A DNA stretch of 64,000 nucleotides from an uncultured Spirochaetaceae bacterium (GCA_944390015.1 CALXOL010000015.1:1-64000); one strand, 5' to 3'. Positions 53,333 through 61,072 are shown, counted from the first letter of the stretch. Notes: generated by a model not told the origin, from the letters alone. Made by a program: numbers and translations.

Positions 53333-54811
53333 TTATTTCTCCTTAATCATTTCAAGCGCACGGCTAAGCCTTCTCTCCGCCTCTTCTATTCCAAGAAGTG
53401 AGATGGAATCAAAGAGAGGAAGGGATACCTGACTGTTGGTAATAGCAACCCTTATCGGCTGGAATACACCGTTCACCTTTATTTCAAGCTCCTGAGAGAG
53501 ATTCATAAGCGCCGTTTCAATCTCCTCATCGCTCTTTTTCTCCCTGAGCATCGAGAAGAGGATTTCACCACCTCTTTCCAACGCAGTCTTCGTCTTCTCT
53601 AAATCAGAGCCCTTCGCAATATATACATTCTCATCCATCACAGGCTCATCTACAAAGAGGAATCTTGAAAGCTCTACTATATCAGAAATGACCTTCATCC
53701 TCTCCTTTGCAGGTTTTACGAGCGCTCTGATCTTCCCCATCTCCTCATCACGCGGAGGATTTGAAACGAATCCCGCATTCACAAGATACGGAGTCATTAA
53801 GGATGCGATGCGCTCATCATCAGCCATTCTTATATACTGGCTGTTAAACCAGTCGAGCTTCTTATAATCGAACTTTCCAGGGTTCTTGTGGATGTTCTCC
53901 ATCTTAAAGCACTTTTCAAGCTGCTCTTTGGAAAGGAACTCCGTCGAACCATCCAGTGACCAGCCTACCAAAGTTACATAGTTGATGATCGCTTCTGGAA
54001 GATACCCCTTCTCCCTGAATTCACGAACGGCAGTAGAGCCATGTCTCTTTGAGAGCTTCTGCCCGTCCTTTCCCATGACCATCGGGAGATGGCAATATGT
54101 CGGCACTTCCCATCCGAACGCATTATAAAGGAGCACATGAAGCGGACCGGATGGAATCCATTCCTGAGCTCTCATGATGTGAGTAATGCCCATCAGATGG
54201 TCATCGATAACATTTGCAAGATGATAAGTCGGGAAGCCATCACTTTTAAGAAGAATCGGATCTGGAGAGATGTCCTTGTTCTTCCTCGTAATGTCCCCCA
54301 TGATAACGTCATGGAATGTGGTCTTACCCTCCGTTGGGACCTTGAGCCTTATTACGGGCTTAATACCCTGTCTCTCGTATTCAGCCCTCTCTTCCTCAGT
54401 AAGGTTTGCACAGTGCCTGTCATACCCCTGATATTCGCTCTTATTCTTAATCTGCTCCTCTCTGAGCTTCTCAAGGCGCTCAGGAGTACAGTAGCAGTAA
54501 TATGCCTTGCCCTCTTTTACAAGCTGCTCTGCATATTTTTTATAGATATCGAACCTCTCGGACTGGATATAAGGACCACAAGGACCACCTACGACAGGAC
54601 CTTCATCCCATTTTATTCCAAGCCAATCGAGAGTCTCATAGAGGTCATTAAGGGATTCATCGCTATAGCGCTCCCTATCAGTATCCTCGACTCTTAAGAT
54701 GAACTTACCTCCGCTGGATTTTGCAAAGAAATAATTAAAAAGGGCGGTGCGGATTCCGCCAATGTGCTGAAGCCCAGTTGGAGACGGGGCATATCGGACA
54801 CGAACACTCAT
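53333..54811 (-). CDS. gltX: glutamyl-tRNA synthetase
   Basis: A 492-residue class I GluRS with RYAPSPTGLQHIGGIRTALFNYFFA and KLSKRHGS. Zinc-site-type cysteines are partly present (YCYCTPERL). Without a glutaminyl-tRNA synthetase in view it may be non-discriminating, acting with GatCAB. ATG 54811 follows GGGAGTATTTT. It leads the three-synthetase operon and is preceded by a structured RNA. Confidence 0.95.
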   Translation of the reverse strand: MSVRVRYAPSPTGLQHIGGIRTALFNYFFAKSSGGKFILRVEDTDRERYSDESLNDLYETLDWLGIKWDEGPVVGGPCGPYIQSERFDIYKKYAEQLVKEGKAYYCYCTPERLEKLREEQIKNKSEYQGYDRHCANLTEEERAEYERQGIKPVIRLKVPTEGKTTFHDVIMGDITRKNKDISPDPILLKSDGFPTYHLANVIDDHLMGITHIMRAQEWIPSGPLHVLLYNAFGWEVPTYCHLPMVMGKDGQKLSKRHGSTAVREFREKGYLPEAIINYVTLVGWSLDGSTEFLSKEQLEKCFKMENIHKNPGKFDYKKLDWFNSQYIRMADDERIASLMTPYLVNAGFVSNPPRDEEMGKIRALVKPAKERMKVISDIVELSRFLFVDEPVMDENVYIAKGSDLEKTKTALERGGEILFSMLREKKSDEEIETALMNLSQELEIKVNGVFQPIRVAITNSQVSLPLFDSISLLGIEEAERRLSRALEMIKEK

Positions 54812-55078: not shown

Positions 55079-55909
55079 TTAGGCCTCAGGCCACATGGGA
55101 GGACGCTCATCAAGGAACTTTAAGGTCTCTGAGAGTACTTGTTTCTCCGCACTCTCTTTTCTGTCATAAGGCATGTAGTGCGTGCCTTTGGCTATCTTCT
55201 TATAGTTGGTAAAATTCTCAATGACCTTTGGACCATATGAGCAAAGCGCATCATCCGCTCCATAAAGGTTTAAATAGTTCTCCCTTTTAAACAATGGAGC
55301 GGCTTTTGCCATGGCATCATAGAGATCGAGCATCTGAGATGGATAAAGGTGTGACCAGTACTCAGCGCCATAGTACTCGTCATCACATGGAGCGCCTAAA
55401 TAATGAAGGTGAAAACTAGGATCACTCTGCCATGGAACATCTGGAATCCTTCCATCAGCTTTAAGCTCTTTTAGCAATGTCTTCTTTACGGGGTGCTTCA
55501 TCCTCAGCGGGGGCGCAACCATGACAGCCTTATCTATGATGGCGCTATCAGCAAGGGCTAGAAGAGAGCAGCCCATCGAATGACCTACCGCATAGACCTT
55601 CTGATAGTTCATCTTCAAATCCGAGAGTGCGTTATCAACAAGGCCAAGCCAGTCGGAGAGCCCGCTATTAGAGAAATCCTCTCCGCTTGTTCCCATGCCA
55701 GGAAGTCGTGGAACATAACAGTCGAATCCTGCGGAATAAAGATAATCCGCGATACTCACCATCTCCCCGGGATATCCGGCATAACCGTGCACAAGCAATA
55801 CTGCGCGATAGAAGTTATTGCTGAGCGTAAAACTACGTCCGCTTGAGCGCTCACTCTTCTTATCGCGATAGAGTCCGTAATACCATGAAGTGGGAACACT
55901 ATATATCAC
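55079..55909 (-). CDS. alpha/beta hydrolase (carboxylesterase/lysophospholipase-like)
   Basis: A 276-residue serine hydrolase with VLLVHGYAGYPGEM as oxyanion region, nucleophile elbow AVGHSMGCS, an Asp in YGADDAL and the final His in GTHYMPYD. It is closest in style to monoacylglycerol-lipase/carboxylesterase proteins; it has no signal peptide. GTG 55909 is preferred because AGGAGG lies seven bases upstream and it overlaps the regulator stop as GTGA; the ATG at 55951 would embed 14 extra codons in the upstream gene. It is the last gene of the five-gene RloAB operon. Confidence 0.85.
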   Translation of the reverse strand: MIYSVPTSWYYGLYRDKKSERSSGRSFTLSNNFYRAVLLVHGYAGYPGEMVSIADYLYSAGFDCYVPRLPGMGTSGEDFSNSGLSDWLGLVDNALSDLKMNYQKVYAVGHSMGCSLLALADSAIIDKAVMVAPPLRMKHPVKKTLLKELKADGRIPDVPWQSDPSFHLHYLGAPCDDEYYGAEYWSHLYPSQMLDLYDAMAKAAPLFKRENYLNLYGADDALCSYGPKVIENFTNYKKIAKGTHYMPYDRKESAEKQVLSETLKFLDERPPMWPEA

Positions 55910-56817
55910 CAGGAGGCCTCCTCGAAAAGGTTCAACAGGTCGATTCTGCATCTGACACCCGTCTTACTGAATATGTTTGCAATGTGATTATTCACGGTAT
56001 TCACGCTTATATTGAGTTTGCCTCCGATCTCCTTATTAGTAAGCCCCATCTTTATGAGCTTGATTATCTCGACCTCCCTTTCTGTGATATGGAAGTTCTC
56101 GACTATCTCATCCATCAGACGGCTCTTATCACTCTGGATCTCATCACTCTTCTTCTCATTCCTCCTATCCTGGTTATCGATTGCGATGAAGAGGAATACC
56201 AGGAGCATTATGAAATAAAGCAGTGCAACCGTCGGAAGCAGTGCGGGTGTGAGAAGAGGGAAAAGAATCGATGCCGTAAAAAGCAGTACGACAAGTGCTG
56301 AAACGGAGATAATCGTTATAGCAACAGCCTTTACCCCCTTCTGCTCTATCTTCGTACAGTTAACCGCCATTATTACGACCGTGTATACTATATCAAGAGC
56401 GAATGCCAGATGCTGGAGATATAAGAATACCTCATGCTTTAGGAATATTGAGAGTATGTAGCATACAACGAAGAATGCTGCCACGAGGGAGAATGCAACC
56501 TTCTCATATGCCGGCATAGGACGTGCGATGACCCAGTTAATAAAAAGAGGTATGAACACGATCAAAAACGCCGCATCAATATGGAAAAGTATGTCCCAGA
56601 TGTAGCGGAAGATGCTCATTGCCAGTGAATCTTCAAAAAGATATGAGAACTGTACGATGGCGTAACTGAATACTACACCCAGCAGTGTGGATGCGAATAC
56701 AATGAGAAACTTCGACCATTTAAAAGAGGCCTTCCGCCCCCATATGATTGCGAGCGAAAGGTCCATCGAAGATATTGAAATCGCCAGTATGCAGGCGATA
56801 ACCGTCAAGGCCTGCAT
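55906..56817 (-). CDS. membrane-anchored LuxR-type regulator
   Basis: A 303-residue protein with about seven predicted membrane helices (residues 1-210), a short linker, and a C-terminal LuxR/GerE HTH (about 238-300: ITEREVEIIKLIKMGLTNKEIGGKLNISVNTVNNHIANIF). It resembles the multi-helix-sensor/LuxR regulators of gut bacteria; the signal is unknown. Anchoring means it would bind DNA at the membrane. Its ATG overlaps the RloB stop by one base, with AGAAGG upstream. Confidence 0.9.
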   Translation of the reverse strand: MQALTVIACILAISISSMDLSLAIIWGRKASFKWSKFLIVFASTLLGVVFSYAIVQFSYLFEDSLAMSIFRYIWDILFHIDAAFLIVFIPLFINWVIARPMPAYEKVAFSLVAAFFVVCYILSIFLKHEVFLYLQHLAFALDIVYTVVIMAVNCTKIEQKGVKAVAITIISVSALVVLLFTASILFPLLTPALLPTVALLYFIMLLVFLFIAIDNQDRRNEKKSDEIQSDKSRLMDEIVENFHITEREVEIIKLIKMGLTNKEIGGKLNISVNTVNNHIANIFSKTGVRCRIDLLNLFEEASW

Positions 56818-57452
56818 TACTTGAATGCCTTCTGGTTATGGCTCATGTCGGCCTGACCGCACACATTCTGAATGCACTCATCGAAAAGCGGCATCGTAGT
56901 CGCTTCAAGTCCGGTCTGAATCTTGACGATGTCATTGTAGTTTCTTGCATTAAGATCCGCAGTCGCATGGCGACTAAAGAGCTGAAGATGAAGATTGAGT
57001 CCTCCTGTAAGCAGGTACTCAGGAGTCATCTCGAATCCCTTGATAGCCCCCTTCACTCTTGCTCTCAGAGCCTCGGCATCATTCGTATATGCCGCCATCT
57101 GTCCCAAATGTAATGCGAACCAGAGTTCAAAGCATGGATTGAACCAGCAGAGGTTTATCTTCTTACGCTCCGCATACTCTCCCATCTCCTTTACAGTCTC
57201 AATATCCGCACCAACCTCATCCAGACCGAAAAGAGTCCATACATACTGATAACGCCCTGCAAGCTTCTTGCGGCTTGTGATGTCGATAAGCTGCTTGAGA
57301 CTAAGGCTCTCACTTCCAGCCCACTCGACGGTAAGATTCATATATCTGCAGTCCTTCCTCATCTGATTGAAGTAAATGGACTCAGCTCTTGTTGCCGTTA
57401 CAAGAAGGATCGTTCCCTTGGCTTCTGTTATGTTCTTCTTACGTTTTGCCAT
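56817..57452 (-). CDS. RloB-like protein (AbiLii-type partner)
   Basis: A 211-residue protein of the RloB family (TOPRIM-like). The diagnostic segment NPCFELWFALHLGQ is intact. The N-terminal motif, usually EGxxTExxYF, reads TATRAESIYFNQM, keeping Glu. The usual DxD strand (VFDRDE) reads VWTLFGLDEV, missing its first Asp. Thus metal binding may be altered. RloB proteins pair with the AAA ATPase encoded one base upstream; the pair corresponds to RloAB and AbiL defence proteins. GGAGGAG lies before the ATG. Confidence 0.85.
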   Translation of the reverse strand: MAKRKKNITEAKGTILLVTATRAESIYFNQMRKDCRYMNLTVEWAGSESLSLKQLIDITSRKKLAGRYQYVWTLFGLDEVGADIETVKEMGEYAERKKINLCWFNPCFELWFALHLGQMAAYTNDAEALRARVKGAIKGFEMTPEYLLTGGLNLHLQLFSRHATADLNARNYNDIVKIQTGLEATTMPLFDECIQNVCGQADMSHNQKAFK

Positions 57453-57453
57453 C

Positions 57454-58740
57454 TCAGTTCTCCTCCTTCTCTTCTGTTACTTCTTCCTCTTTAACAGGAG
57501 TACCATCATGCACGAAGTAGAAATCGCTGGTTACAGGAAGCGCACCGAACGCACCCTGCAGATAACGATTGTAATTGCTGGTCCTGCTTCTGCCCTTGAA
57601 ATCTGAAAGGCTATAGAAAACAGTGCTGGACTCGTTATCCTTCTGTGCGAACCAAATGGCATCCTTTCTAAGAAGTCCATCCTTCAGAAGGGACGGATTG
57701 CAATCTACAACCAGCATCTGACTCTGCTTATTGCAGGACTCGAATATCTCTACCAAGTGGCAAAGTACATCGGGATGGAGAAGCTGACCGAAGTCATCTA
57801 TTAAGAGAACCTTCTCGCTTACGAAGCTCGTGAAGAATGCGATACCGATCGCGACTAATCTTCTTAAAGAAAGGCTCTCCATGAGGAATGAGTTCGAATA
57901 TCCATCTACCTTCTTGTCGTTTACATAGACGTGTGTGAAGACAACGCTCCTGGAGCCGTCTTCCTTCTCCCTGACACCTACACGCCTGATATCCGTAATA
58001 TCCAGGGCCCAGAGGTAGTTAACGAGCATATCACCCCAACCAGGATGCTTCTTAAGGGCATCTGCAACAAACTGCTCGGCCTGAGTTCCAACTCCCATCG
58101 GCAGTATGTTAAGCGTATTCTTAAACCATGAATACATCTCACCACTTGTCTGACCACCTGAGAGAGCACTCTCATTAAGGAAAGTCCTGCTCTTTGGAAG
58201 ATGCTTTGCAGCCCTCTTCTTATCACCACGGTAAAGTTTACCGAAGCGGTAATCATAAGCATCCCCTTCTTCCGCCTTCTTTCTCTCGAACATCAGCTTC
58301 TTAGAACCGTTGACGATATAATAGAGGGACTCCTCATATACCATCTCGCGGTTTGCTGATAATAGATAGCGTCCGATGATTGTCGGGTTCTCCTCATTGC
58401 CTTCCTCTCCCTTGTTAAGAAGAACGTCAATGCTGATGTTTGCAGGGGTGAGTTTGTCTATTCCATATGCGAATACCGTTCCGGAAAGACTTGATGCCAG
58501 CGGATTCTCTATCTCACGAGGAGAGAGGACAATCCTCCTAAGCACTTCAAGGGCTCTCACGAAGGAGCTCTTACCCGCTCCATTCGGACCAATTACGGCT
58601 GAAGTCTTAATCAGATTTATCTTGTCGTTGACAGCGATAACCTTACTCGGATCGAGGCGGCTATCCTTAACGGCTTCAAAACTGATAGTCTGAGCGGACT
58701 TAACCGATTTGAAGTTTTCAATAGTCATGCTCAATAGCAT
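57454..58740 (-). CDS. AAA15/21-type ATPase (RloA/AbiLi-like)
   Basis: A 428-residue ABC/SMC-like ATPase. It opens MTIENFKSVKSAQTISFEA, Walker A is GPNGAGKSS, and the signature region reads MESLSLRRLV. Walker B/D-loop is VLLIDDFGQLLHPDV, with Asp where the catalytic Glu is usual. The C-terminal YLQGAFGALP corresponds to the YLxGRFGxxP mark of RloA-type proteins. The tail (last 20 residues) is highly acidic. AGGAGG lies before ATG 58740, which shares one base with the phosphatase stop. With RloB it forms the core of the proposed defence or stress operon. Confidence 0.87.
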   Translation of the reverse strand: MLLSMTIENFKSVKSAQTISFEAVKDSRLDPSKVIAVNDKINLIKTSAVIGPNGAGKSSFVRALEVLRRIVLSPREIENPLASSLSGTVFAYGIDKLTPANISIDVLLNKGEEGNEENPTIIGRYLLSANREMVYEESLYYIVNGSKKLMFERKKAEEGDAYDYRFGKLYRGDKKRAAKHLPKSRTFLNESALSGGQTSGEMYSWFKNTLNILPMGVGTQAEQFVADALKKHPGWGDMLVNYLWALDITDIRRVGVREKEDGSRSVVFTHVYVNDKKVDGYSNSFLMESLSLRRLVAIGIAFFTSFVSEKVLLIDDFGQLLHPDVLCHLVEIFESCNKQSQMLVVDCNPSLLKDGLLRKDAIWFAQKDNESSTVFYSLSDFKGRSRTSNYNRYLQGAFGALPVTSDFYFVHDGTPVKEEEVTEEKEEN

Positions 58741-59390
58741 TACACGACCTCCTTAAGCTGACGGGCCAGACGGCTCATCTTACTCATAATATCTGGATGG
58801 CTTGATATCATCTCAGCCAAATCAATCACATCTTCTTTTCTACCATGACAGTCGGAAGCAAGAAGGTCAACAAGACCTGCCTTCACATATTTTTCTGCCA
58901 TGCCGCCCTTCTTAAGCGCCTTGCCGTTTACCTGGATGAGGTATCCTCTGTCCTTCATCTGTTTAAGCGCATCGCCCTCAGGGCTAAGCCACCTGTAACG
59001 CTCAACATGCGCTATTATCGGAACCAAAGGCTCCAGGCTCTCAAGCTTGGGAAAGAGATCTGGTGGAGCATAATCAACAGGGAACTCGACCAAGGCATAT
59101 TTACCAAGGATAGGTATGCCTTTGACAACCTGTTCGTTTAAAACGTAAATCTCACTTGCCAGAGAGGAGAAAATCTTTTTTTCCTCGCATATCGCACTCA
59201 CCTTAAGCCAAGCATCACGGAGCGCCTTTGTATCCGTGGTGACATATGGATCGTAGAGATGTGGTGTGAAGATTATTCCAGAAAAACCGCATTTCTTATA
59301 CAAATCCAGGTAATCCCCGATTTCTTCCCACTCAACAAAGCCATCATCAACATGAGGAAGAAGATGGCAATGCATATCAAACAATTCCAT
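58740..59390 (-). CDS. PHP-family phosphatase (CpsB/YwqE-like)
   Basis: A 216-residue PHP phosphoesterase of the CpsB/CapC tyrosine-phosphatase type. Metal ligands are seen in DMHCHLLPHVDDG, FTPHLYDPY, SEIYV, AHVERYRWL and ASDCHGR. Its known relatives dephosphorylate BY-kinases of capsule synthesis, but no such kinase or polysaccharide gene is nearby. It is the first gene of the operon; a perfect extended -10 (TGA-TATAAT) ends nine bases before the ATG and no ribosome site is present. Confidence 0.9.
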   Translation of the reverse strand: MELFDMHCHLLPHVDDGFVEWEEIGDYLDLYKKCGFSGIIFTPHLYDPYVTTDTKALRDAWLKVSAICEEKKIFSSLASEIYVLNEQVVKGIPILGKYALVEFPVDYAPPDLFPKLESLEPLVPIIAHVERYRWLSPEGDALKQMKDRGYLIQVNGKALKKGGMAEKYVKAGLVDLLASDCHGRKEDVIDLAEMISSHPDIMSKMSRLARQLKEVV

Positions 59391-59399
59391 ATTAGAGGT

Positions 59400-59408
59400 A
59401 TTATATCA
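59400..59408 (-). promoter_or_regulatory. extended -10 promoter of the PHP-RloAB operon
   Basis: TGA-TATAAT on the minus strand (TATAAT 59400-59405) is the full extended consensus. The predicted start lies within about three bases of ATG 59390. The interval 59409-59494 is AT-rich without other signals. Confidence 0.7.
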
Positions 59409-59494: not shown

Positions 59495-59522
59495 TGAAGG
59501 AATATTTATCCATATTCCTTCA
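59495..59522 (-). terminator. strong terminator between the two unknown operons
   Basis: A perfect 11-pair stem TGAAGGAATAT/ATATTCCTTCA with a six-base loop, then T7A on the minus strand. It lies 60 bases past the stop at 59582 and insulates the PHP-RloAB operon. Confidence 0.85.
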
Positions 59523-59959: not shown

Positions 59960-61072
59960 CTACCTCCTCAGAGCATCATAAATACTGCCGGAAGCAGGAG
60001 CGGAGAGGCTCTCTTCCCCACTCCTATCACTAAGCTGACGCATGCTCTCCTTATTACTCTCATCTATGCTTTTGAGTCTCGAATACAGCTGATAGACCTC
60101 TGCATTCCCACTCTCATCATAAACCCTCTTCGCCATGTCCATTGCCTTCTGGATATCCCCACATGCCGCAGTTGCAAGAGAGGCATTGTATCCGCTTGGA
60201 ACATGCCCTGAATTAAGATAAATATCCCAGAAAAGTCCTGATGCCTGTTTTATATCCCCATCCTTGAGCACATCATATGCGACTTGGGCATCTTCACTTT
60301 TTGGCCTGTTATCCATAAGGGTCAGACTTGCTCTGGTCCTAAGAGGTACGAGCTGCTGGGTAATGCGGCTCATGGAGGAATCAACCATGCGCTCAAAATG
60401 CCTATCTGGATATGCATAAATCAGATATGGATTTGAGACGAGGAAGTTATCATCATCCTCTACTACAAAGCGCCTTGTCGCGATTATGCTCTCACTCTCC
60501 ACATCCACGATGGTATAGGAGAAGGCAAGATAATAATCGGCATCATAGTAGAACTTCGTATCTGCCGTCTCATACTCATTCCCATCCGAATCCACACGTG
60601 TCTCATAAGTCGTCTTTGAATATATGTACTCATCGATGGACATGTTATCGATTCTTGGAATAAGAACAGCTTCCACTCCCCTCTTTTCAAACTCACTTCT
60701 ACTTGATACTCCGATTCTTGATGCATCGAGGATGCTGTCGGTGATATCAGGAGGCAGGATTGTATAATATCCTGATTCATCAAGCGTAGAGACGATCTTA
60801 TCCGTCATATAATCTGCGATCTCATCTTTAAGGCTCCAGTCGTAAGTCGAACGGGCAGATGCGAAACCGTAACGGGCAAGGTTGTCAATCGCCCTGATAT
60901 ACCTTGATGGATGTGAAAATCCGTAATAAGGAACGGTCGATGCGATTGCGATATTCCTGTGCCCACCCATGTCGATCTCGCTGGGTACCATATATGTTAT
61001 GTCAACGGAAGACTGACATGAGCAAAAACATATCACAACGGAAAGCAATAAAAAGAAAAGTTTCTTTCTCAT
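59960..61072 (-). CDS. predicted lipoprotein with DUF6340-like and repeat regions
   Basis: A 370-residue protein. The signal peptide ends in VVICFCSCQSS, with Cys suitable for lipidation. The main domain (about 25-250) resembles DUF6340/CsgG-like envelope lipoproteins: NIAIASTVPYYG, VEAVLIPRIDNM, a long AFSYTIVDVESESIIATRR strand pair. The last 100 residues look like TPR-type helices. It probably sits in the periplasmic or outer membrane leaflet. The start overlaps the upstream stop by four bases. Confidence 0.8.
   Translation of the reverse strand: MRKKLFFLLLSVVICFCSCQSSVDITYMVPSEIDMGGHRNIAIASTVPYYGFSHPSRYIRAIDNLARYGFASARSTYDWSLKDEIADYMTDKIVSTLDESGYYTILPPDITDSILDASRIGVSSRSEFEKRGVEAVLIPRIDNMSIDEYIYSKTTYETRVDSDGNEYETADTKFYYDADYYLAFSYTIVDVESESIIATRRFVVEDDDNFLVSNPYLIYAYPDRHFERMVDSSMSRITQQLVPLRTRASLTLMDNRPKSEDAQVAYDVLKDGDIKQASGLFWDIYLNSGHVPSGYNASLATAACGDIQKAMDMAKRVYDESGNAEVYQLYSRLKSIDESNKESMRQLSDRSGEESLSAPASGSIYDALRR

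Follow-up and report, generated by a model that had tools for sequence, protein, structure and literature searches.

The closest described relatives of the genes studied here are the AbiL/RloAB abortive-infection systems, sporadically distributed pairs of an ATPase and an RloB-family protein. Two further systems invite comparison: GajA of the Gabija defence system, a single polypeptide with ATPase and TOPRIM parts and an active nuclease that binds nucleotide and has likely lost its hydrolysis (work cited in PMC12796447), and Cran1, an archaeal OLD-family ATPase-TOPRIM protein with an apparently essential role in the cell cycle and no apparent antiviral role, for which the ATPase matters more than the nuclease (PMC12796447). 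Here, we describe a five-gene operon at positions 55,079 to 59,390 of a 64,000-nucleotide stretch (hereafter the window) from an uncultured Spirochaetaceae bacterium (GCA_944390015.1 CALXOL010000015.1:1-64000) which, by its named relatives, is close to Candidatus Ornithospirochaeta of the family Sphaerochaetaceae. Its open reading frames, all on the minus strand, encode a PHP phosphatase, an ATPase, an RloB protein, a membrane LuxR-type regulator, and an alpha/beta hydrolase. We consider it probable (roughly two chances in three) that ATPase and RloB are a domesticated AbiL/RloAB pair, i.e., a nuclease-inactive, ATP-binding switch or scaffold that has become a housekeeping core pair. The literature collection searched, for RloB and for defence in Sphaerochaeta, held nothing on this operon.

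A vertically inherited ATPase-RloB pair at one locus

The pair shares with AbiL/RloAB the order of its genes, the homology of its ATPase (196.5 bits with the PADLOC model AbiLi), and an RloB-family product above the Pfam cut-off, encoded at +1 spacing behind the ATPase gene. It differs in lacking the TOPRIM metal-A acids together with three ATPase motifs, and in being a core, vertically inherited pair joined to PHP, LuxR and hydrolase genes, whereas AbiL/RloAB is sporadic. The genomes compared are mostly metagenome assemblies, and absence calls in incomplete ones are soft. An RloB orthologue was present in all 48 genomes of the genus that were searched, and an ATPase profile was positive in 87 of 92 family genomes, 86 of which scored 540 bits or more, the gene of the remaining one (G006) being split over two contigs. 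Scores were 538–574 bits in four genomes of families f3 and f4 and 167–208 bits in canonical relatives, which leaves a clear gap. A phylum-wide draw gave 34 positive family genomes and, outside the family, three remote matches only (167–178 bits). The sporadic or mobile spread expected of AbiL/RloAB is thus not seen for the core pair, although its type is missing from 9/90 family genomes, all of 1.1–1.6 Mb.

Nearly all Sphaerochaetaceae examined share the order D370-(D124)-(PHP)-ATPase-RloB-LuxR-hydrolase-gltX-glyS-tyrS, and the operon is also present in named strains of Sphaerochaeta. About 70 genomes repeat the stretch from ATPase to hydrolase with almost no spacing (median gaps of 0 for ATPase-RloB, 2 for RloB-LuxR, and −4 for LuxR-hydrolase), an arrangement far beyond chance. 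In genus g14 (two members of 1.2 Mb), ATPase-RloB-gltX alone remain, with gaps of −4 to +4 between RloB and gltX. Where the pair is gone, as in L235, L236, and L238, D370 and the LuxR gene are adjacent, and gltX follows directly in two of these loci. The dN/dS ratio (nonsynonymous to synonymous substitution rates) is 0.007–0.047 for the ATPase, mostly under that of gltX, and 0.006–0.10 for RloB, and pairwise distances correlate with those of gltX at r = 0.88 for the ATPase and 0.85 for RloB. The low ratios show purifying selection and, together with the tracking of gltX, are the pattern of a maintained core gene, from which essentiality does not follow by itself.

Mobile elements offered no close relatives: none of the ATPase was found on the viral contigs searched, and plasmids gave remote ATPase matches only (ca. 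24–28% identity among the best listed) and one weak RloB match in Rhodococcus. Separately, RloA-like ATPases, in part annotated as abortive infection protein, are encoded on small plasmids (ca. 6 kb) of E. coli and Salmonella.

The initial annotation had suggested that this operon could be a regulated defence or stress system, and had named fixation at one housekeeping locus as an outcome that would refute it. This is the pattern found, and a defence system is not supported: the operon is fixed beside gltX-glyS-tyrS without presence/absence variation in the genus, is inherited vertically and absent only from some small genomes. Its RloB also lacks the metal-A acids that sporadic relatives keep. 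A defence island was also considered and is ruled out by the neighbours, which are gltX, glyS, tyrS, a conserved lipoprotein gene, and genes of unknown kind.

Changed catalytic motifs in both proteins

Canonical RloAB pairs exist in the same genomes. The Pfam RloB model found additional canonical copies in 17/48 genus genomes, at varied sites and some with internal stops; in the window genome, a canonical second RloAB at C3:114379 adjoins a transposase-like gene (L001 2257-3549, contig C3) that looks TnpB-type by eye. We compared motifs between 27 canonical and 86 core pairs; L098, a canonical relative by motifs and trees, was left out of the core counts. Canonical RloB proteins carry EG..TE in 27/27 and DxD in 26/27 cases, in contrast to the core type, in which no sequence out of 86 has all three TOPRIM acids and a single one has both DxD acids. 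The canonical ATPases likewise retain the signature (25/27), Walker B DE (27/27), and switch His/Gln (25/27), whereas the core ATPases have Asp-Asp in Walker B and have lost the switch His (85/85 each). With the signature Gly changed as well, the core ATPase does not have the complete ABC motif set, and Walker A is kept. Families f3 and f4 are intermediate, with the signature Gly present and the switch His and TOPRIM acids already gone; the loss therefore looks stepwise. Both trees unite the core type in a single clade (support 100/98 to 100/100), and L098, L218, and L228 are the nearest canonical rows.

Structure comparison places the ATPase among the heads of Rad50, SMC, and PtuA (Z 17–21; Rad50 21.1, PtuA 18.4), while by sequence its solved relatives were limited to weak OLD, ABCF, and EF3 matches. 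For RloB, the AlphaFold2 model (mean predicted local distance difference test score, pLDDT, 92.5) best matches the TOPRIM region of OLD (6p74) at Z 8.1 over 131 residues with a root-mean-square deviation of 3.8, a score barely higher than is common for background, and GajA is in the same list at Z 6.1. No solved RloB relative was found by sequence. The putative TOPRIM assignment is also backed by the match to PF13707; the metal-A acids are absent.

We propose that one copy became fixed downstream of a kinase-phosphatase gene pair for exopolysaccharide in an ancestor shared by Sphaerochaetaceae with two other families, and that this copy lost the TOPRIM metal-A site and kept ATP binding with changed hydrolysis motifs before being inherited vertically as a core gene pair. 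The Rad50-like ATPase would dimerize on ATP and carry a non-cleaving TOPRIM subunit, and the complex, acting on a partner that is either nucleic acid or protein, would serve as a scaffold or as a switch set by nucleotide state, not as an abortive-infection nuclease; nuclease activity would be lost, ATP hydrolysis slow or absent, and the role one of housekeeping. The operon would further carry separable cargo, namely a phosphatase of the CpsB type that serves a Wzc-like tyrosine kinase, and a seven-transmembrane (7-TM) LuxR regulator with a hydrolase. Cran1 is a precedent in kind for an OLD-type ATPase-TOPRIM with a non-defence role, though it is a single archaeal protein that retains all active-site residues. 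A second precedent is the nucleotide-sensing ATPase of GajA (described in PMC12796447), which differs in being part of an active nuclease of a defence system on one polypeptide.

Several points weigh against a domesticated, inactive pair. Nine small family genomes lack it, so its essentiality is not universal. Core RloB proteins retain the metal-B Glu (position 24) in 77/86 cases, and 56/86 have an acid at the second position of DxD; a triple metal-A mutant of Bp OLD still nicked plasmid to some extent (PMC6755086), so that weak nicking by core RloB is possible. Neither is the Walker B change from Glu to Asp proof of lost hydrolysis, and single Walker B changes in Cran1 were without effect (PMC12796447). 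The fold match of RloB is modest (a Foldseek search gave nothing below E 0.001), and the pair may have a defence role through different chemistry.

If the domestication holds, a bacterial abortive-infection pair was taken into the ordinary life of the cell through loss of its nuclease site, with a testable series of intermediates. Scans with defence hidden Markov models are likely to call AbiL in nearly every Sphaerochaetaceae genome, most likely wrongly. The broader claim, that a defence pair became a non-nucleolytic, near-essential complex of cell physiology in the whole family, its site erosion traceable from a canonical relative through f3/f4 to Sphaerochaetaceae, is tentative and has in our view somewhat less than an even chance of being right.

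Companion genes and alternative roles

The PHP gene occurs almost exactly where a long Wzc-type tyrosine kinase does, so its product most likely belongs to an exopolysaccharide system as a phosphatase of the CpsB type. Its metal-site residues H7, H9, D15, H128, D180, and H182 are conserved in 41–42 of 42 sequences. Like capsule phosphatases of the CpsB/Wzb type, it belongs to the CpsB/CapC family, has the metal residues, and has a Wzc-type kinase as genomic partner; the difference is that here the kinase (a bacterial tyrosine, or BY, kinase at C2:45297) lies on another contig, while the phosphatase heads this operon. About half of the loci have no PHP gene, and its presence tracks the kinase: long Wzc occurs in 12/13 genus genomes with PHP versus 0/35 without and, in the rest of the family, in 23/25 versus 0/8, counts for which Fisher p values ignore relatedness. 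Exceptions among PHP-negative genomes are G070 with a sub-cut-off kinase and four genus members with a short kinase. Coupled loss of PHP and Wzc is seen inside each of genera g5 (with the G070 exception) and g8. We therefore favour a phosphatase that works with the kinase rather than with ATPase-RloB, and discarded the idea that it is an obligate part of the ATPase-RloB unit.

The 7-TM part of the regulator has the family range of the core pair, extended by f17 and, weakly, by f26. Regulator and pair have each been lost without the other; although linked, they do not make up a single obligate machine, and LuxR and hydrolase are separable from ATPase-RloB. The coupling of five genes claimed in the initial annotation thus survives in part: the single operon, the RloA/RloB homology, and the family-wide tie to the membrane regulator and hydrolase stand, whereas the phosphatase follows its kinase.

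As a more specific form of the domesticated-pair reading, the pair could take part, together with PHP and the membrane LuxR regulator, in controlling the envelope or exopolysaccharide, with ATPase-RloB relaying or gating the signal. The order nucleotidyl-transferase, Wzc-type kinase, PHP, ATPase, RloB in f3/f4 and the shared operon and family range of LuxR and pair are consistent with this. Yet ATPase-RloB is retained in all genus genomes without PHP and long Wzc, regulator and pair are lost independently, and in one f17 genome a Wzc-PHP pair adjoins gltX with no core ATPase-RloB next to it, so that we rate such a role as rather unlikely.

Active innate defence from a fixed locus, with phage stopped by residual metal-B nicking or a new active site at the RKDCRY motif and the regulator tuning the response, would fit the clear AbiL homology, the retained metal-B Glu, and the strong conservation of that basic motif. 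We nevertheless think it unlikely: the genus shows no presence/absence variation, inheritance is vertical, no plasmid relative exceeds 60% identity, and separate canonical RloAB copies sit in the same genomes. Very low dN/dS is also unlike an arms race.

Equally doubtful is a role linked to translation or tRNA. It is suggested by the operon of the pair with gltX in g14, with its tight RloB-gltX gap, and by the constancy of the aminoacyl-tRNA synthetase neighbours, but this support is neighbourhood only, and no gltX was found in f4 in the sequence covered, up to 10 kb around the pair. That the inactive pair is an antitoxin-like dampener which binds and restrains sporadic active RloAB copies is very improbable, because even though active-looking and inactive-looking copies occur together in 17/48 genus genomes, the core pair is present with or without an active copy, and core and canonical sequences are far apart.

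Layout and transcription signals of the operon

The gene identities proposed in the initial annotation agree with the profile matches in Table 1, and its junctions of −1, +1, −1, and −4 were reproduced, the last one with the hydrolase start at GTG 55909 and not at ATG 55951 of the longer frame. This GTG is most likely the true start and gives a GTGA overlap with the regulator gene.

Table 1. Positions of the operon genes, their motifs, and flanking features in the window
Feature	Position	Strand	Evidence or remark
D370, probable lipoprotein	59960..61072	-	conserved upstream neighbour of operon in family; no Pfam match
Intrinsic terminator of upstream unit	59495..59522	-	11 bp stem, T-rich tail
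Extended −10 TGATATAAT	59400..59408	-	9 nt ahead of PHP ATG
CpsB/CapC-type PHP phosphatase, 216 aa	58740..59390	-	PF19567 85.6 bits
AbiLi/RloA-type ABC (Rad50-like) ATPase, core type, catalytic motifs remodelled	57454..58740	-	AAA_21 50.3 bits
Walker A GPNGAGKS, retained	58567..58590	-	G, G, K, S kept in 84/84 core sequences that cover the site
Signature region ESLSLRRL, without the Gly of canonical ES.GT..L	57856..57879	-	S at Gly position in 81/86
Walker B LLIDD, Asp in place of the Glu of canonical DE	57793..57807	-	D in 85/85 core
Switch region QMLVVDCNP, without the His of canonical T[TS]H	57694..57720	-	C in 81, V in 4 of 85 core
RloB/AbiLii-type protein, TOPRIM-like fold, metal-A acids missing	56817..57452	-	PF13707 50.7 bits, above Pfam cut-off
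RloB residues 20–24 ATRAE at canonical EG..TE position, first Glu lost	57381..57395	-	first Glu in 0/86 core
RloB RKDCRY motif, near-invariant in core	57342..57359	-	R32 82/86, K33 81/86, D34 85/86, C35 81/86, R36 85/86
Membrane LuxR-type regulator, ca. 7 hydrophobic segments and GerE helix-turn-helix	55906..56817	-	GerE 52.7 bits; hydropathy
Alpha/beta hydrolase	55079..55909	-	Abhydrolase_6 (PF12697) 51.1 bits; S111/D220/H244 conserved in 69–70 of 71
gltX, opens the gltX-glyS-tyrS block flanking the operon family-wide	53333..54811	-	ATG of MSVRVRYAPSPTG taken as start on the basis of homology

A few observations concern individual genomes or families with the core type. The core ATPase genes in G030:C198 and G088:C34 contain one in-frame TAG or TAA each, from sequencing error, decay, or an edge effect, and G043 carries two core-type RloB copies on separate contigs (L113, L038), either a true duplication or a mixed assembly. 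The RloB C-terminus reads CG[KR]C in f3/f4 (L093-L096) versus CG.AD in Sphaerochaetaceae, and CG[KR]C together with C35 could form a metal or redox site in f3/f4.

Both transcription signals claimed for the operon are present. The terminator at 59495 closes the unit upstream, and the extended −10 is also found in the closest relatives at matching spacing (TGNTATAAT at identical spacing in L099-L104, TATAAT at that spacing in L105-L107). A generic promoter scan by itself was not clearly above chance, but because the motif recurs at the same spacing in relatives, it is more than a chance match. Given its short distance from the PHP start codon, the transcript would be almost leaderless.

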